Source: a virus. From it: DNA of 23,184 bases. The position numbers were made by a program, and so were the translations under genes. Under the pieces are notes generated by a model. The model saw nothing but the letters and a program-made list of their open reading frames with translations, was not told the origin of the DNA and searched no databases. Location: positions 1-23,184 of the IMG/VR virus record IMGVR_UViG_3300042696_000039; one strand, given 5' to 3'. Below, piece after piece: positions 6,009-16,403 of the stretch. How positions within the stretch are numbered: position 1 is the stretch's first letter; the number at the start of each line of letters is the position of its first letter.

Positions 6009-6710
6009 ATGGGCATCCAAACCGAGCAGACCGACAGCGACATGGACGTCGAGGTCGGCGACGACACCGAACCCGAGACCGTCGACGAGCCCGACACAGA
6101 GCCCGAGCCCGAGGAAGAGCCGGAGCCGGACGACAAGCCGAAGCCCAAGCCTCCGGCGAAGAAGGCCGACGACGAGTACAAGCCGCCGTCCAAGGACGAA
6201 TGGGCGCGCACCCAGGCTGCGCTGAAGAAGGCAAACGACGACGCCAAGCGGCACCGGCTCCGCAACAAGGAGCTGGAGGACAAGGCCCGCGGGGACGAGA
6301 CGGAGCACGAGAAGGCGCTCCGCGAGGCCCGCGAGGAAGGCGAGAAGCGGTTCCGTACCCCGCTCGTGCGCACCGCGGTCCGAGGCGCGCTGGTCGAGGC
6401 CGGGGCGCTCGCCTTCCTCCAGGACGAGAAGGACCCCAAGTCCGAAGACGCGCTGAAGAAGGGCGAGTCCCGGCTCTCGCGGCTGATGAAGCTCGTCGAC
6501 CTCGACGCTCTCGACGTCGACGACGACGGCTCCGTATCGGGACTGGAGGCCGCGGTCGCCGACGTAATCCACGACTTCCCCGACCTCTTCGCCGCGGCCG
6601 CCCCGCGGAAGCCGAAGCCGCGGCCGACCGGAGCGCCGCGGCCGCCGGCGGTGGAGAAGCCCAAGAGCACCGCAGAGATCCACGCAGCCCGGCTCCTGGG
6701 CAGGGCTTGA
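6009..6710 (+). CDS. Capsid scaffolding-like protein
   Basis: 233 residues. Scaffold proteins guide assembly of the capsid shell and then leave. The protein has the usual character: an acidic N-terminus (1-45) rich in Glu, Asp and Pro (EPEPEEEPEP), a basic Lys/Pro patch (46-55), a charged helical or coiled-coil centre (about 65-120), and a Pro/Arg-rich region near the end. The function is inferred from composition, size and position directly before the capsid gene. ATG 6009 has GGGAGA at 5998-6003; an out-of-frame ATG at 5996 is not used. Confidence 0.7.
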   Translation: MGIQTEQTDSDMDVEVGDDTEPETVDEPDTEPEPEEEPEPDDKPKPKPPAKKADDEYKPPSKDEWARTQAALKKANDDAKRHRLRNKELEDKARGDETEHEKALREAREEGEKRFRTPLVRTAVRGALVEAGALAFLQDEKDPKSEDALKKGESRLSRLMKLVDLDALDVDDDGSVSGLEAAVADVIHDFPDLFAAAAPRKPKPRPTGAPRPPAVEKPKSTAEIHAARLLGRA

Positions 6711-8260: not shown

Positions 8261-8707
8261 GTGGTCAACGCCTGGGCGACTGCACAGCAGGTCATCGACA
8301 CCACCGGGGTGTCCGTGACCGATCAGCAGCTTGCCCAGGCGCAGGACGACATCGAGATCTTCACCAACCGGGTGTACGAGGACACGCCTCGCATCCGGAC
8401 GCGGGATCTCTACTGGCTGGGCCGGGCCGTCGCCCGTCAAGCCGCATGGCTGGCAGGCCAGTTCGGGCTGGAGACGCGGCTGGATGCCACGCAGATCCAG
8501 CAAGACCAGGTCTCCACCACGCTGCAGGGCGACGGCCTGGTCCTCGCACCCATGGCCGCCCGAGCGCTCCGCCGGGTGTCGTGGATGCGGTCCCGCACCG
8601 TGCACATCCGCTCCGCGATCGAAGGCTCCGGCCCCATCGTCGGCGACTACCTGTCTTACGGCTCGGACGAGCACATGGTCTGGGCCCCGTACACGGGCGG
8701 TGCGTGA
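8261..8707 (+). CDS. Head-tail adaptor (connector) protein
   Basis: 148 residues. Adaptors of the HK97 gp6 / SPP1 gp15 type form a ring beneath the portal. The N-terminal two-thirds is a helical bundle in this style (AQQVIDTTGVSVTDQQLAQA, then the D-L-Y-W-L-G-R-A-V-A-R-Q-A-A-W helix at about 48-65), followed by a strand-rich end. The assignment comes from size, helix pattern and gene order (capsid, x, adaptor, stopper). The start is GTG 8261, two bases after the previous stop; its stop overlaps the next ATG by one base. Confidence 0.65.
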   Translation: MVNAWATAQQVIDTTGVSVTDQQLAQAQDDIEIFTNRVYEDTPRIRTRDLYWLGRAVARQAAWLAGQFGLETRLDATQIQQDQVSTTLQGDGLVLAPMAARALRRVSWMRSRTVHIRSAIEGSGPIVGDYLSYGSDEHMVWAPYTGGA

Positions 8708-9036
8708 TGCAAGCCATCGCCACCACCAAGGTCAGCATCCTGCGCGGCACAGAGACCGACGAGTTCGGCGACGAACGGGACACCACCACCCCGATCGCCA
8801 CCGGCATCCCGGCCTCACTGACCGAGCAGACCCGCCGCGTCACGACCCGCGAGAACCCCACCCCCCGCATCGTCCGCTACGCCGTCGCCCGGGTCCCCGC
8901 CCGCACCGACGTCACCGACCAAGACCGGGTGCGTGACGAACGCACCGGCGCCATCTACATCGTCGAGGCAACCTCCTCGATGGCCAACCCCGCAGCCGTG
9001 CCGGACATCCGGCTCGACCTGCGGCGCACCACCTGA
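8707..9036 (+). CDS. Head closure (stopper) / head-tail joining protein
   Basis: 109 residues. Stoppers close the connector once DNA is packaged. The protein is small and strand-rich, with an extended middle (TRRVTTRENPTPRIVRY) and a typical barrel-like end in which D-R-V-R-D-E-R-T-G-A-I-Y-I-V-E precedes L-D-L-R-R-T-T. That matches small phage head-tail joining proteins. ATG 8707 overlaps the adaptor stop by one base; a longer in-frame extension to the left lies within the adaptor gene and is not needed. Function is inferred from position and shape. Confidence 0.65.
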   Translation: MQAIATTKVSILRGTETDEFGDERDTTTPIATGIPASLTEQTRRVTTRENPTPRIVRYAVARVPARTDVTDQDRVRDERTGAIYIVEATSSMANPAAVPDIRLDLRRTT

Positions 9037-9114
9037 CAACAGCATCGGCCACCAGCGCCCGGGGAGACCGGGCCCGGCCACGAGTACGAGACCACCTTCG
9101 GAGAGGAGGCGGCC

Positions 9115-9486
9115 ATGGCGCGATCCGGTGTGCGGATCGACCCATCAGCGCGCGCACACGTCGACGCAGCGATCAACGACTGGCTCGGCGACGTCATCGG
9201 CCCCGCCATCCTCGGCGACGCCCGCAACTACGTGCACAAGCGCTCCGGCCGCCTCGCTGAGTCTCTGCGCTCCGAGGTGCAGGGCAAGGTACTCCGTGTC
9301 GGCTCGCTGGACTGCAACTACGCGACCGACGTCGAGATGGGCACGAGCCCGCACGTCATCCTCCCGAAGAACAAAAAGGCCCTGCACTGGCCCGACGCCG
9401 ACCACCCGGTCGCCCGCGTCAACCACCCCGGCACCCCGCCAATGCCGTATCTGCGGCCCGCCCTGTTCCAGCGGAGGACCGCATGA
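9115..9486 (+). CDS. HK97 gp10-like tail completion protein
   Basis: 123 residues. HK97 gp10-type proteins act at the head-tail junction. Residues 38-80 show the recognisable pattern A-R-N-Y-V-H-K-R-S-G-R-L-A-E-S-L-R followed by V-G-S...YATDVEMGTSPH, and the end P-x-P-Y-L-R-P-A-L is the common family close. ATG 9115 has GAGAGGAGG (9101-9109). It is preceded by a 78-base gap with a small GC-rich palindrome (CCGGGCCCGG) but no obvious promoter. Its last four bases overlap the next gene (ATGA). Confidence 0.8.
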   Translation: MARSGVRIDPSARAHVDAAINDWLGDVIGPAILGDARNYVHKRSGRLAESLRSEVQGKVLRVGSLDCNYATDVEMGTSPHVILPKNKKALHWPDADHPVARVNHPGTPPMPYLRPALFQRRTA

Positions 9487-9935
9487 GCACGCCGGTCCTG
9501 CACGCCACACCCGAACTCGTCGCCACCGCCTGGCTGAAGACCGTGGTCGGCGACCGCGTCGCGACCACCCTGCCCAAGGACTCCAGCAGTTGGGTCGACG
9601 CCGGGTTCTGCACGCTCGTCGTGGCTGGCGGTACCCCGAACCTGTACGTGCCGCTGCGTGAACCGGTGATGGGCGTGGACTGCTGGGCCGTCAACCCGGG
9701 CTCGCAGAAGCCTCCGTGGGACAAGGCCGCCATGCTCGCCGAGGCGATCCAGGCCGCCTGCTACGACCACTCGGCGATTCCGCAGGTCGTGGATCTGCCA
9801 GCTGGCTACCCACGGGCGCGGGTGCTGTCGGCGTACACCACGGGCGACTACCGGCGGGTGCACGACGACGCATCGTCATACGCCCACTACTCGATCCCTG
9901 GCCTCGTCGTCGCCTGGATGGAGGTGCCGTCGTGA
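9483..9935 (+). CDS. Tail terminator protein
   Basis: 150 residues. Tail terminators (lambda gpU / SPP1 gp17 type) cap the tail tube at the head-proximal end. The N-terminal helix (ELVATAWLKTVVGDRVATTLP), a strand pair around GFCTLVVAGGT, and the P-V-M-G-V-D-C-W-A segment match the mixed alpha/beta layout of this family. The gene sits in the classic slot between gp10-like protein and tail tube. It overlaps the preceding gene by four bases and the next by one base. Confidence 0.65.
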   Translation: MSTPVLHATPELVATAWLKTVVGDRVATTLPKDSSSWVDAGFCTLVVAGGTPNLYVPLREPVMGVDCWAVNPGSQKPPWDKAAMLAEAIQAACYDHSAIPQVVDLPAGYPRARVLSAYTTGDYRRVHDDASSYAHYSIPGLVVAWMEVPS

Positions 9936-10156
9936 TGTGGGCCATCCAAGAGGACACCCCGCACGGGCAGCTCCTGTCGTGGAACGGCAAGACCCTCGTC
10001 CATGGCGACAAAGGCGAGCTGGAATTCCTCCTCACCGGGCCGGTCCGGATCGTGCCGTGCCCGCCGAGCTTGCGCCCAGAGGACTGCCTCGAACTCCGCT
10101 TCCACCCGCAGTACGCCCACCACCAGTTCCCGCTCGTGAGGAGCAACTACCGATGA
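9935..10156 (+). CDS. Small unknown protein in tail operon
   Basis: 73 residues, not recognised. It starts MWAIQEDTPHGQLLSWNGKT and looks like a small strand-rich fold: paired hydrophobic segments (LEFLLTGPVRIVP, LELRFHPQY) with no membrane segment. It begins at an ATG overlapping the tail terminator stop and ends in a 4-base overlap with the next gene. Such tight coupling supports a real gene, probably a minor tail or assembly protein. Confidence 0.65.
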   Translation: MWAIQEDTPHGQLLSWNGKTLVHGDKGELEFLLTGPVRIVPCPPSLRPEDCLELRFHPQYAHHQFPLVRSNYR

Positions 10157-10371
10157 CCCACAAGGTCCGCACCACCATGCGCCCCGACCAGGAGATCGAG
10201 GTCGACGACGCCGAGTACCTCGACCTGAAGCGGCAGGGCCTCCTCGTCGAGGAGACCGCCGAGGAGGAGGTGCCGCCCGCGACTGCGGCGCCGGCCGCCC
10301 CCGAAGCGCCGCCGCAGCCCGCGGCCGTCGCCCCGAAGAAGCCGTCCTCGGCCGGAAGCAAGGAGAACTGA
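10153..10371 (+). CDS. Small unknown protein with Ala/Pro-rich tail
   Basis: 72 residues. The first 35 form a compact segment (VRTTMRPDQEIEVDDAEYLD then LKRQGLL). After an acidic stretch the end is Ala/Pro-rich and probably disordered. I have the impression of similar short proteins just before tail tube genes in other actinophages, without a known role. It overlaps the previous gene by four bases (ATGA) and is two bases from the tail tube gene. Confidence 0.65.
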   Translation: MTHKVRTTMRPDQEIEVDDAEYLDLKRQGLLVEETAEEEVPPATAAPAAPEAPPQPAAVAPKKPSSAGSKEN

Positions 10372-10977: not shown

Positions 10978-11379
10978 ATGGCATCCACCACCCCCGCCCG
11001 TACCCGCCAGTCCGCTGCCGCGAAGAGGGCAGCGGCCAAGCCCGTCAACGGCACCGACGAACTCGACTTCGAGCCGCTGCGGATCGCCTCCGACGAGGAG
11101 ATCGAAGAGGAGCGCGTCGAGCTCTTCTACATCGGCGACACCCCCTACACCATCCCGAAGACCATCCCGCCCGGTGTGGCCCTGCAGTTCCTTCGCGAGG
11201 CCCGCGAGCACGGCCGAGACCTGGCCACCGCCCCGCTCCTGACCCGTGTCCTCGGCGAGGACGCCTACGAGGCGCTGGAGCAGTCGCGGGCGCTGACCGA
11301 GGACCAGATGGAGTGGATCGTCAACAAGGTCCTCGACCTGGCCCTCGGCCGGAAGAAGCGGGAGGGAAAAGCGAAGTAG
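10978..11379 (+). CDS. Tail assembly chaperone, short form (G-like)
   Basis: 133 residues. It is the equivalent of lambda gpG, which coats the tape measure during tail assembly. The start is basic and Ala-rich, then an acidic segment (SDEEIEEERVELF), P-Y-T-I-P-K-T-I-P-P-G-V-A-L-Q-F-L-R, and a helical end. The stop TAG (11377-11379) lies 7 bases after the GGGAAAA slip site. Most ribosomes should make this form. ATG 10978 has GCGAGGAGC (10961-10969) upstream. Confidence 0.85.
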   Translation: MASTTPARTRQSAAAKRAAAKPVNGTDELDFEPLRIASDEEIEEERVELFYIGDTPYTIPKTIPPGVALQFLREAREHGRDLATAPLLTRVLGEDAYEALEQSRALTEDQMEWIVNKVLDLALGRKKREGKAK

Positions 11380-11774
11380 ACGACGGCACTTCGTGGATCC
11401 GCCTCTTCGACCAGATCAAAGAGCCGGACTTCGCGGAGGCCATCGTCGAGCGAGTCGAGGAACTCCTGTGGGTCCTCGACCACCAGGACGACATCGACGC
11501 CGACTTCCTCGCGATCTACGGCCTCGACCTTGAGCACGTCGAGATCAGCAGTCGCCGCTACTTCACCCGGGCCCAACGTCTGACCGCCTTCCAGGGCGTG
11601 ATGGCCGCCCGCGTCGAAGAGGAACGCGAGAATCGGGAGCCGAGCTACACCCCAACCCGCACGAGCACGACCGGCCCGCCACCACGGCAGGCCAGCAGAG
11701 AGACCACCGAGGTCTCACTGACCCAGTTCCGGGCCCAGTTCCCGGGACTCGTGAGCGTGGCACAGGGAGGGTAG
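10978..11774 (+). CDS. Tail assembly chaperone, frameshift fusion (GT-like)
   Basis: A -1 frameshift at GGGAAAA (11364-11370) joins the first 131 residues of the short form to 134 residues in the -1 frame, about 265 in all. The join reads ...REGK-SEVDDG. The T part is acidic and helical (LFDQIKEPDFAEAIVERVEE), then ends in a Pro/Thr-rich stretch. In lambda the T part recruits the tail tube protein while G holds the tape measure. The downstream frame has no well-placed start with a ribosome site of its own, and the tape measure gene begins immediately after its stop. Confidence 0.85.
11364..11370 (+). other. Programmed -1 ribosomal frameshift site
   Basis: G GGA AAA, in the correct phase (zero-frame codons GAG GGA AAA), follows the X XXY YYZ rule and closely resembles lambda GGGAAAG. 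A small stem, CGAAGT (11372-11377) with ACTTCG (11388-11393), follows after one base and covers the zero-frame stop codon. That spacing is shorter than usual for a stimulator. Confidence 0.88.
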
Positions 11775-14700
11775 ATGGCCGGGGCGTTCCGCATCGCCGA
11801 GGGGTACGTCGAGGTCACCGCCGACGAGTCCGGCTACGACCGCGCCATCGACAAGCTGAAGGGCGAGAAGCACAGCGTCAGTGTGGGCGTCGACCTCGAC
11901 GACAAGGACGCGATCGCCAAGCTCGACAAGCTCGTCAAGCCCCGCACCATCAAGCTCACCGCGGACATGGATACCCGCGCGGCCGCCGACGACCTCGCCG
12001 TCCTCACTCGGCGCCGCACCATCGCCGTCGCTGCAGACGTCGACGAAGCCTCCGCCGACGGGGAGTTGGCCGCTCTTGCCGCTGACCGCACGGTGCGGCT
12101 CTTCGTCGACGTCGATGACGCTGAGGCCATCAGCCGCCTCGACGCCCTCACCCGCGACCGCATGGTCCACGTGCTCGCCGACATGGACACCCGTGTCGCC
12201 GCCGCGGACCTCGCCAACCTCACCCAGCGGCGCACCGTCCGTGTGGACGCCGACGCGGACACTGCCGCGGCCGCCGCACGGCTGGACATCCTCACCCGCG
12301 ACCGCACCGTGCGCATCAGGGCCGGTCTCCTCGGAGGCGGAGGAGGCGGGGCAGGCGGAGGTCTCGGCGGCCTCACGTCGAGCCTTTCCAGCCTCACTGT
12401 CGCGGCTGTTGGTGCGCTTCCAACGCTGGCGTCGTTGGCACAGTCGATTCTCCAGATGGGGCCAGCCGCTGCGATTGCGGCTCCTGCCGTGCTGTCGCTG
12501 GGGGCTGCCTTCGCCGCTATCAAGCTCGGCACCAGCGGGATCGGGGACGCGTTCAAGGCGGCGTTCGCGCCGGCCACCAAGAGCGCCTCGCAGGCAGAGA
12601 ACGCAACCCGCAGGGTGGAGTCCGCGCAGCGCTCCCTCGCCAAAGCCCAGCAGGCCGTCAAGGACGCCGAGGTCAACGCGGCCGAGGCCCGGGTGAAGGC
12701 GGCCCGGGACATCCAAGACGCCCAGCAGAACCTGAAGAACACCATCTCGGACGTCGCCGACTCCAACCGGCGCGCCGCCGAGAGCGTGGCCTCCGCCGAA
12801 CGCGACCTCGCCAACGCGCAGAAGGCGGCCCGGCAGGCGCAGCTCGACCTCACCCAGGCACGCAAGGACGCCGCACAGGAGCTGGAAGACCTCAACAACC
12901 GGCTCGCGGACGCACAGCTCGACCAGCGGCAGAAGGTCCTCGACCTCCAGGACGCCGAGCAGGAGCTCGCCGCAGTCAAGGCCAAGGGGTCGAAGGCCAC
13001 CCAGGAAGAGATCGACAAGGCCCAGCTGCAGTACGACAAGGCCGCCCAGGCACTGTCGGAGCAGCAGACCGAGACTGCCCGGCTGCAGGAGCAGACGGAC
13101 TCCGCGAACAAGGCCGGCGTGGAGGGCTCCGACAAGGTCACGAAGGCCAAGCAGAACATCAACGACGCCCAGCAGGAAGTCATCGACAAGACCCGCGAGT
13201 TGAAGGACGCGGAGATCGAGGCGGCCCGCACCCAGCAGGACGGGGCGCAGCGCATCGCGAAGGCCCAGCGCGACGTCGCCGACGCACAGGCCGCCGCAGC
13301 CAAGGCCGCAGCCGATGGCGCCCGACAGATCAAGGACGCGCAGGAGGCCGCCGCGGACGCCGCGCGGGCCCTCGCCGAGGCTCAGACGTCCGGGGCGCTG
13401 GCCACGAACAAGCTCGGCGACGCGATGGCCCGCCTGTCGCCGAACGCCCGCGAGTTCGTCAACGCCGTCCTCGCACAGCGCGAGGCGTGGCGCGGTTTGA
13501 AGCTCGACGTGCAGGACGCCCTCTTCAAAGGCCTGGGCGACACCTTCACCCGCCTCACGTCGAACGTGCTGCCCGAGCTGGACATGGGCCTCGTCGGCAT
13601 GGCCGACAACCTCAACCGCACCGCACGCAACGCCGCAGAAGCCGTCGTACAGCTCGCCAAGACCGGCCAGCTCCGCTCCATGTTCGACGGCCTCAACCGA
13701 GCCACCGGCAACCTGACGAACATCCCCGGGCAGATCATCACCGGGCTGACACAAATCTCCATCGCCGCATCCCCGGCGTTCGCCCGGCTGACGAAGGCCG
13801 CCTCCGACGCAGCGGACCGCATCTCACAGAAGCTCGGCGACGCCTTCAAGTCGGGCGCGCTGGAGGACGCCATCAACAACGGCGTCGACATCGCGCGCCA
13901 GTTCGGCAAGCTCCTCGGCGACGTCTTCGGCACCTTCAGCAACATCATGAAGGCGGCAGCCGCCGGCGGGGGCGATGCACTCGGCAGCTTGGGTGCCGTG
14001 TTCTCCGAGCTGCGGCGGATCACGGCGATGCCGGGCGTCCAGCAGGCGTTGACGTCCGTGTTCACGGCGATCAACTCGATCGCGAAACTCTTCGCCGGCA
14101 CGTTGGGCGCGGTGCTGCAGGCGGTGCTTCCGCTGCTCGCCAAGCTGGCCCCGGTCGTCACCGAGCTGGCGACCAAGTTCGGGCCCGTCCTCGCTGAGCT
14201 GGCGAAGACCCTCGGTGAGGCACTGACGCCGATCATCGACGCGCTGCTGCCGATCGTCACGGACATCGGCGGCATCATCATTCAGCTGGTGCAGGCGGTG
14301 ATGCCGCTGCTGCAGCCGATCGGTAACCTGCTCGGCGCGATCATCACGGCGCTCGCCCCGGTCATTCAGGCGGTCGGCGATGAGCTGGTGACGCTGGTCG
14401 GGGCGCTCGCTACGGGGCTGGCGCCGATCGTGCAGGCCCTCGTGCCCGTGGTGCAGATGTTCGGCCAGTTCCTTGGCCAGCTCGCCCCGCTGTTCCCGCA
14501 GATCATGAACGCGGTCATTCCGCTGATCCCGCCGCTGTCGCAGCTGATCGTGGCGCTGCTGCAGTTGGCGTTGCAGGTGATCCAGCCGCTGCTGCCACTG
14601 ATCGTGCAGTTGGCAACGTTTTTGACGACGTCTTTGGCTACGGCGCTCGGCTATCTCATCCCGGTCATCACCACGGTGATCGGCTGGCTGACCACGTTCA

Positions 14701-16403
14701 CCGACGCGGTAACGAACGTCGTCAAGTGGATCGTCGACAAGTTCCAGTACCTGTACGACGTGCTGGTCGGTCACTCGATCATCCCCGACCTGGTGTCGGA
14801 GATCATCGGCTATTTCACCGGCTTGTGGTCGAAGACGAAGGAGATCTTCAACGCCCTGAAGAAGGGCGTCATCGACATCTGGAACAACCTGTGGAACACA
14901 GTCCGCTCCAAGTGGGACTCCTTCTGGGGCGGGCTGAAAAACGCCTTCTCCAACGCCTGGTCAGTTTTCCGGACCTCCGTGTCGGCGCTGCGCACCTCGA
15001 TCACCAACACCTGGTCGTCCATGTGGAACTCAGCGCGCGACAAGGTGACGTCGATCTTCTCCACCATCAGTGGGAAAATCTCCAGCTTCAAGAACGGCAT
15101 GAAGTCCGCATTCTCCTCGCTGCGGGATTCACTCGGCACGATCTGGAACGGCATCAAATCCAAGATCGGCGACCCGGTGAAATGGGTCATCTCCAAGGTC
15201 TACAACTCCGGCATCCGCACCATGTGGAACACCATCGCCGGAAAGATCAGCAGCAAGCTGACCCTGCCCGCGATCTCTCTCGGCTTCAACCGAGGCGGCA
15301 TCGTCCCCGGCTCCGGCAACACCGACACCGTGCCCGCCATGCTCACCCCCGGCGAGCGCATCCTGTCCAAGCAGCAAGTCGCTCAACTCGGCGGGCACCG
15401 CGGCATCGACGCCATGCTCGGCCAGGACAAGCCCACCCGCACCGGCGGCAACCCGACCCGGCAGGAAGAACGCCGACGCCACCAGGCGGGCACCCAGCAC
15501 TTCGCGTCCGGTGGCATCGTCGGCACCGTCACCGGCGCCATCGGCAACGCGGTCGGCTCCGTCGCCTCATGGGCGAAAGACCTCGTCCTCGGCGGGCTGA
15601 AGGCGGCCGCGCAGAAGGCCCTCAGCAGCCTGGTCAAGCCGCTCATCAACCAGATCCCCGGCGGAGGCTTCGGCAGCCTCTTGAAGGGCCTGTCGAACCG
15701 GGCCGTCGACGGGATGCTGTCGTTCCTCGGTAACGAGGACAAGAAAGCCACCGGCGGGCCCGCGGTGCAGCGGGCGTTGGCGTGGGCGAAGTCCCAGAAT
15801 GGCCTGCCCTACCAGTGGGCTGGTAACGGCAACCCGTCGTGGGACTGCTCGGGGTTCATGTCGGCGATCGAGTCCGTCATCCGCGGGCAGAAGCCGCACC
15901 GCCGGTGGGCGACTGGCGCGTTCGTCGGGAACAACGGGCCGGCCGGGTGGGTGCGGAACCTGAAGTCCCCGTTCATGATCGGCATCACGAATGCGGGCGT
16001 CGGCCACACCGCGGGCACGCTCGCCGGCGTGAACTTCGAGAGTTCCGGCGGCCGCGGCGTCCACTACGGCAGGACCGCGCGCGGCTACAACGACTCGATG
16101 TTCACCTCACAGTGGGGCTTCGCACCGGCCACCAAGTACGACTCCGGCGGCCTGCTCCAGCCCGGCGCGACGATGGCCGTGAACCGGACGAAGCGGCCCG
16201 AGCGGGTCCTCGACGCGCAGCAGACGGCCATGTTCGAGCAGCTCGTCTCCGGCAGCCGTGGGGCGCGGAGCATCGTCATCGAGAACATCACCGTCAGCGG
16301 GACGTTCGACTTCTCCTCCCCGAACGCCCGCCGCGCCGCCGCGAACGCGCTCGTGAAGGACATGAAAGAAGCCCTCCGCAAGTTTGATCGGGAGCGTGCC
16401 TGA
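11775..16403 (+). CDS. Tail tape measure protein with NlpC/P60-like domain
   Basis: 1542 residues; it fixes tail length. Order of parts: six 24-residue repeats (33-176); a Gly-rich then hydrophobic stretch (185-250); a long Ala/Gln/Lys/Asp coiled coil (about 270-540); a helical region; a hydrophobic proline-punctuated region (about 775-975); a Trp/Phe-rich 11-residue-type repeat (about 1020-1155); a G-G-I-V-P-G-S-G-N-T-D-T-V-P-A-M-L segment near 1174; and an NlpC/P60-like domain with Cys1358 in DCSG and His1411 in GHTAG. The family cleaves peptidoglycan peptides, so this end may open the wall during injection; a third catalytic residue is not assigned. ATG 11775 is preceded by GGGAGG. The stop overlaps the next ATG. 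Confidence 0.92.
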   Translation: MAGAFRIAEGYVEVTADESGYDRAIDKLKGEKHSVSVGVDLDDKDAIAKLDKLVKPRTIKLTADMDTRAAADDLAVLTRRRTIAVAADVDEASADGELAALAADRTVRLFVDVDDAEAISRLDALTRDRMVHVLADMDTRVAAADLANLTQRRTVRVDADADTAAAAARLDILTRDRTVRIRAGLLGGGGGGAGGGLGGLTSSLSSLTVAAVGALPTLASLAQSILQMGPAAAIAAPAVLSLGAAFAAIKLGTSGIGDAFKAAFAPATKSASQAENATRRVESAQRSLAKAQQAVKDAEVNAAEARVKAARDIQDAQQNLKNTISDVADSNRRAAESVASAERDLANAQKAARQAQLDLTQARKDAAQELEDLNNRLADAQLDQRQKVLDLQDAEQELAAVKAKGSKATQEEIDKAQLQYDKAAQALSEQQTETARLQEQTDSANKAGVEGSDKVTKAKQNINDAQQEVIDKTRELKDAEIEAARTQQDGAQRIAKAQRDVADAQAAAAKAAADGARQIKDAQEAAADAARALAEAQTSGALATNKLGDAMARLSPNAREFVNAVLAQREAWRGLKLDVQDALFKGLGDTFTRLTSNVLPELDMGLVGMADNLNRTARNAAEAVVQLAKTGQLRSMFDGLNRATGNLTNIPGQIITGLTQISIAASPAFARLTKAASDAADRISQKLGDAFKSGALEDAINNGVDIARQFGKLLGDVFGTFSNIMKAAAAGGGDALGSLGAVFSELRRITAMPGVQQALTSVFTAINSIAKLFAGTLGAVLQAVLPLLAKLAPVVTELATKFGPVLAELAKTLGEALTPIIDALLPIVTDIGGIIIQLVQAVMPLLQPIGNLLGAIITALAPVIQAVGDELVTLVGALATGLAPIVQALVPVVQMFGQFLGQLAPLFPQIMNAVIPLIPPLSQLIVALLQLALQVIQPLLPLIVQLATFLTTSLATALGYLIPVITTVIGWLTTFTDAVTNVVKWIVDKFQYLYDVLVGHSIIPDLVSEIIGYFTGLWSKTKEIFNALKKGVIDIWNNLWNTVRSKWDSFWGGLKNAFSNAWSVFRTSVSALRTSITNTWSSMWNSARDKVTSIFSTISGKISSFKNGMKSAFSSLRDSLGTIWNGIKSKIGDPVKWVISKVYNSGIRTMWNTIAGKISSKLTLPAISLGFNRGGIVPGSGNTDTVPAMLTPGERILSKQQVAQLGGHRGIDAMLGQDKPTRTGGNPTRQEERRRHQAGTQHFASGGIVGTVTGAIGNAVGSVASWAKDLVLGGLKAAAQKALSSLVKPLINQIPGGGFGSLLKGLSNRAVDGMLSFLGNEDKKATGGPAVQRALAWAKSQNGLPYQWAGNGNPSWDCSGFMSAIESVIRGQKPHRRWATGAFVGNNGPAGWVRNLKSPFMIGITNAGVGHTAGTLAGVNFESSGGRGVHYGRTARGYNDSMFTSQWGFAPATKYDSGGLLQPGATMAVNRTKRPERVLDAQQTAMFEQLVSGSRGARSIVIENITVSGTFDFSSPNARRAAANALVKDMKEALRKFDRERA
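11871..12302 (+). repeat. Six tandem 72-base (24-residue) repeats in tape measure gene
   Basis: Units encode residues 33-56, 57-80, 81-104, 105-128, 129-152 and 153-176, with no insertions. A general pattern is R-T-[IV]-x-[LV]-x-A-D-x-D-x(7)-L-x-x-L-x-x-x. Units 1/4, 2/5 and 3/6 are more alike than neighbours: 2 and 5 share ADMDTRxAAxDLAxLTxR, and 1 and 4 share VDxDDxxAIxxLDxL. This points to duplication of a 216-base block (11871-12086 and 12087-12302). A degenerate unit may precede it (residues 10-32). Confidence 0.85.

Follow-up and report, generated by a model that had tools for sequence, protein, structure and literature searches.

The residues of a tape measure protein (TMP) that set the length of a phage tail have been sought mostly by engineered deletions. 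The head-proximal end of such a protein was resolved by cryo-EM in Staphylococcus phage 80alpha, where the N-termini of three TMP copies lie at the neck and each copy contributes a strand to a sheet shared with the hairpin of the tail completion protein before continuing into helices; only residues 1–37 are modelled in that structure (PMC11661146). Inside the tube of phage 812, the N-termini of the TMP were found to meet the end of the DNA (PMC12886913). At the opposite end, the TMP C-terminus is located at the tip in both lambda and 80alpha. Furthermore, the first 154 residues of the TMP of TP901-1 are essential (PMC5099701). TMPs with a variable number of repeats are also already known, namely with an 11-aa aromatic repeat that is gained or lost in blocks (PMC3271669). 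For a regular N-terminal array of 24-aa strand-helix units that varies beside a constant core and is exchanged among TMP types, no description was found in the open-licence papers searched.

Such an array is encoded in the window analyzed here, a stretch of viral DNA of 23,184 nucleotides (IMG/VR record IMGVR_UViG_3300042696_000039), whose relevant features are listed in Table 1. The gene product is a siphophage TMP; its identification as a TMP, made earlier in a sequence-only reading, is supported by its PHROGs matches (E 8e-138 for the best-matching family) and by its position after an overlapping pair of tail chaperone-like genes with a −1 shift site. These two ORFs (10978–11379 and 11313–11774) overlap in the −1 frame, with the motif G_GGA_AAA at 11364–11370. 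The motif stands in the frame of the first ORF, just before its stop, and the −1 frame goes on as the second. The pair is likely made by a programmed −1 frameshift, judging from this arrangement; neither ORF has a PHROG match.

Table 1. Features of the TMP gene in the window (all coordinates are window positions)
Feature	Position	Strand	Basis
TMP gene, 1542 aa	11775..16403	+	ORF; phrog_6090 E 8.4e-138, many further TMP families
N-terminal lead MAGAFRIAEG	11775..11804	+	alignments: nearly invariant among close relatives
Unit 0, residues 11-34, strand-helix, proposed neck-docking	11805..11876	+	register with units 1-6; PSSM score 24.6
Unit 1, class A	11877..11948	+	
Unit 2, class B, genuine counterpart of unit 5	11949..12020	+	16/24 residues shared with unit 5
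Unit 3, class X, most divergent	12021..12092	+	
Unit 4, class A-like, most similar to unit 6	12093..12164	+	
Unit 5, class B	12165..12236	+	
Unit 6, class C	12237..12308	+	
Closing strand VRIRA, from residue 179	12309..12323	+	translation
Glycine-rich linker	12324..12374	+	translation
TMP core, constant length (1293±3 aa) in 27/40 relatives	12519..16403	+	

Residues 11–178 of the TMP (window 11805–12308) consist of seven gapless units of 24 residues. Six of them had been recognized before, with a phase set two residues earlier, and are confirmed at residues 35–178 (11877–12308); the seventh, unit 0, lies upstream of these and in register with them. In self-matching, the score at offset 24 reached 192, compared with −64 ± 25 in 5000 shuffles (maximum 36), and that at offset 72 reached 175, compared with −38 ± 19. 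A periodicity z-score is not specific by itself, as the array-free TMPs of phages Kromp and Zuko reach 9–10 via charged coil. The periodicity of 216 bases proposed for the DNA is also present, in the form of a 33-mer repeated at 11966–11998 and 12182–12214 with 82% identity.

The sequence-only reading had further proposed that units 1–3 correspond to units 4–6, with the pairs 1/4, 2/5 and 3/6 most alike. The pair 2/5 was upheld, being reciprocal best matches with 16 of 24 residues identical and 74% identity at the DNA level. The other two pairs are less clear, as units 4 and 6 (14/24, score 63) are more alike than units 1 and 4 (11/24, score 54) and 3/6 is weak. The pairing 1-3, 2-5, 4-6 ties with 1-4, 2-5, 3-6, both scoring 175. 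Across six genomes of the window clade, the best partner of unit 4 is unit 6 in five, the best partner of unit 6 is always unit 4, and unit 3 has no stable partner. A clean 3+3 duplication is thus only partly supported. The 72-residue order itself was significant when residues were shuffled within columns (p = 0.005), and it gains independent support from relative L122, whose four units (0-A-B-C) amount to one 72-residue block fewer than the 0-A-B-X-A-B-C of the window clade. Since other orders prevail in most of the remaining relatives, the 72-residue order is a local feature of the window clade. Internal duplication as such is borne out, with different numbers of units among relatives.

The design of the unit was derived from 256 distinct 24-aa units, unit 0 excluded. 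Positions 1, 3, 5 and 7 are hydrophobic in 95–100% of these units and positions 2, 6 and 8 in less than 5%, while positions 16 and 19 are hydrophobic in every unit. In addition, Asp is found at position 8 in 95%, Thr or Asp at position 9 in 93% and Ala at position 12 in 93%. This pattern suggests a beta-strand with one hydrophobic face (residues 1–7) that leads into a short amphipathic helix N-capped by Asp8, and supports the earlier proposal of a strand-helix array as opposed to a coiled coil. The paired Asp residues were also suggested to bind metal. The DxD pair occurs in about half of the units (D6 in 53%, D6 and D8 together in 52%), which would favor a metal site in each unit, but 43% of the units keep D8 without D6, including highly conserved ones such as SVDTRVAADE, and D8, with Thr or Asp next and then an amphipathic helix, is consistent with a helix cap. 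The metal-binding array was rejected on this conservation, and a metal site in each unit is very improbable.

Structure prediction gave a less definite picture. For the window array (24 sequences), AlphaFold returned seven helices about 24 residues apart and no sheet (pLDDT 51.5), and for relative L033, with about 12 units (14 sequences), it returned alternating strands and helices at a 24-residue spacing in part of the array (pLDDT 45.9). With pLDDT of 46–52, both models are too weak to confirm the fold. No significant match was obtained with Foldseek for the better-patterned model (best E 0.076), and known solenoid families such as leucine-rich repeats yielded neither a Pfam match above the cut-off nor a confident solenoid model. 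The best profile match in the PDB, a MarR regulator at E 0.008, was judged to be chance, and assignment to a known solenoid or repeat family was rejected. These results bear on the possibility that the array of each chain forms a compact beta-alpha sheet or solenoid that docks the tape at the neck or caps it there, in which case the number of units would be nearly neutral for tail length. The hydrophobic faces of strand and helix would suit a layered beta-alpha fold, and strands are adjacent in part of the L033 model, but neither a confident monomeric fold nor a Foldseek match was obtained. We regard such a compact fold as a serious but unlikely alternative, to which the length evidence considered below also applies.

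Relatives are encoded at 48 IMG/VR loci and by prophages in 11 Streptomyces genomes; two of these prophages, with about nine and seven units (L052 and L056), are found in S. stelliscabiei. Among 298 genomes drawn from the same family, the array profile matched in 23, several of these matches being weak and only some inspected. The shortest arrays have two detectable units (L138, L151) and the longest about 12 (L033), the number of units being given as span/24 because some middle units of the relatives have 21, 27 or 30 residues. Core length, taken as the distance between a conserved motif and the stop, was determined in 40 complete distinct TMPs. In 27 of these the core spans 1280–1305 aa (mean 1293, sd 3), and the arrays of the same 27 proteins range from 96 to 288 aa, or about 4 to 12 units, which excludes a unit count fixed in relatives. 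Total TMP length rises with array span with a slope of 0.95, so that array length is not compensated, and no compensation between array and core length was seen in the 27 constant-core TMPs. A minority of TMPs have a changed core, for instance L039, L024, L028, L055 and L061, which differ from 1293 aa by about −77, −24, +50, +127 and +361 aa, respectively.

The variation of the array is also apparent in phages with similar tail genes. Compared with the window, relatives with four (L122), nine (L012) and 12 units (L033) have major tail proteins that are 81% identical, chaperone G proteins that are 62–64% identical and TMP cores that are 70–76% identical, whereas their arrays share only 42–54% identity. 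The array is thus what varies, whereas the remainder of the tail is kept. In lambda-like phages, TMPs are coated by chaperones. If the tail assembly chaperones (G and G-T) bound the units one after another, the number of units would set the chaperone load and not the structure of the virion. Such coating, together with the chaperone pair that precedes the TMP gene in the window, would be in line with this role; the similarity of chaperone G in phages with four, nine and 12 units argues against it, as do the Streptomyces phages Kromp and Zuko, where the chaperone pair is retained without an array. A role of the units as chaperone sites is accordingly quite improbable. Kromp and Zuko have related cores (45% identity over about half of the core, and 35%, respectively).

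Similar units were furthermore found in TMPs whose N-terminal caps and cores are different. For instance, L041 and L125 are 50% identical over 126 array residues with no detectable similarity between their cores, and L124 and L125 are 55% identical over 80 array residues, with cores that match in the C-terminal part only. In sequence comparisons, the array thus behaves as an exchangeable module. Altogether, the best explanation of these observations is that the array evolves by gain, loss and exchange of whole units, independently of the core and in the window clade as a 72-residue block.

Comparable designs exist beyond these relatives. A tblastn search of the array against the phage collection gave no match at E 0.01, and profile scoring later found the TMP of Corynebacterium phage Poushou, in which at least three units match the 24-aa profile at exact 24-residue spacing with 13–22 bits (shuffle maximum 2.6). 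Poushou differs from the window in genus, in its core (29% identity over two thirds) and in having fewer units. The TMP of Gordonia phage GMA4 carries a gapless strand-helix repeat in the same place (score 142 versus 29 ± 5 in shuffles), but its period is 22 aa, the 24-aa profile finds no match in it and hhalign detects no homology. The 80alpha TMP likewise begins with a strand and then a helix, a succession seen in the window by residue pattern only, and carries a strand-helix repeat with DxD-T/N motifs before its hydrophobic segment; its units are longer (period about 30). Homology of the units to the 80alpha N-terminus was not detected (unit profile score 0, hhalign probability below 1%), and the likeness of 80alpha and GMA4 to the window array is one of pattern. 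The parallel with Poushou, GMA4 and 80alpha points to strand-helix arrays as a common, little-described design of the TMP N-terminus. The variable TMP repeats described by Belcaid et al. (2011; PMC3271669) and in TP901-1 (PMC5099701) resemble the window array in being tandem, in differing in number among relatives and in being gained or lost as multi-unit blocks. Unlike the N-terminal 24-aa strand-helix units, those repeats are 11 or 18 aa long, marked by aromatic residues and located in the body of the tape; with 24 aa and no conserved aromatics, the window units do not qualify as 11/18-aa aromatic repeats. A second repeat, located in the core of the window TMP (14116–14604), has seven hydrophobic, proline-rich copies of about 33 nt (11 residues) and comes nearer in size to the 11-aa repeats already known from TMPs.

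The reading that we favor, with a little better than even confidence, is that the array constitutes the head-proximal strand-helix segment of a TMP trimer, in which units 1–6 repeat the docking motif of unit 0 down the lumen. Unit 0 would correspond in place to the N-terminal strand-helix of the 80alpha TMP that joins the tail completion protein hairpin at the neck, and by position and pattern it is likely the docking strand-helix. Units 1–6 would follow as copies of the motif in the head-proximal part of the tail lumen, before the glycine-rich linker, a hydrophobic segment and the coiled core, and the array would be exchanged between otherwise different TMPs. We infer the trimeric state, the lumen position and the neck docking of the window array. 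In the window genes from capsid to major tail protein (8261–10371), no PHROG of known function was matched and no neck or tail completion protein could be named.

As it varies freely beside a core of nearly fixed length, the array could lie outside the ruler, although faster gain and loss of units in a repeat would produce the same picture. The roughly threefold variation in array length beside a core held to ±3 aa, together with the glycine-rich linker that separates the two, would also be expected of the compact fold outlined above. Length arithmetic in 80alpha points the other way. For its TMP of 1154 aa and a tail of 39–40 rings, with an assumed ring rise of 41 Å, a TMP spanning the whole tail would extend by 1.4–1.5 Å per residue, compared with 1.8–1.9 Å without the 245-residue N-terminal array. 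The ring count thus needs the whole TMP, which leans toward an array that is stretched along the axis and adds tail length, and a compact fold outside the ruler would leave too few residues. Furthermore, a tail lumen of about 35 Å (Douge) leaves little room for three solenoids.

For an array in the form of a head-proximal strand-helix segment of the trimer, extra units would most likely lengthen the tape by about 3.4–3.6 nm each. A stricter version holds that the array is a length-tuning cassette, in which an axial strand (about 23 Å) and helix (about 18 Å) per 24-residue unit match about one tail ring (about 41 Å), so that each unit gained or lost would add or remove about one ring with the core unchanged; we consider this one-to-one correspondence improbable. 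If the array extends the tape, the tails of the L033 and L122 phages should differ by about 27–29 nm, and if it lies outside the ruler, they should not differ. A natural test of which part is the ruler is provided by at least 27 TMPs that share a core length of 1293 ± 3 aa and similar tail genes and have about 4 to 12 units. Some of them sit in named Streptomyces strains, among them prophages of Streptomyces sp. NRRL S-1022 (L058, about 12 units), Streptomyces sp. LUP30 (L051, nine) and S. spinosisporus 7R016 (L050, seven), and the tail lengths of a few would tell whether the head-proximal segment counts.

Two further observations concern other parts of the window. Toward the C-terminus of the TMP, residues about 1343–1494 (15801–16256) resemble an NlpC/P60 cell-wall hydrolase domain; the Pfam NLPC_P60 match is weak (E 0.03) and a PHROG endolysin match over residues 1040–1494 is strong (E 6e-61). 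Upstream, the gene before that of the major capsid protein contains acidic, proline-rich short repeats (6062–6146) and probably encodes a scaffold.
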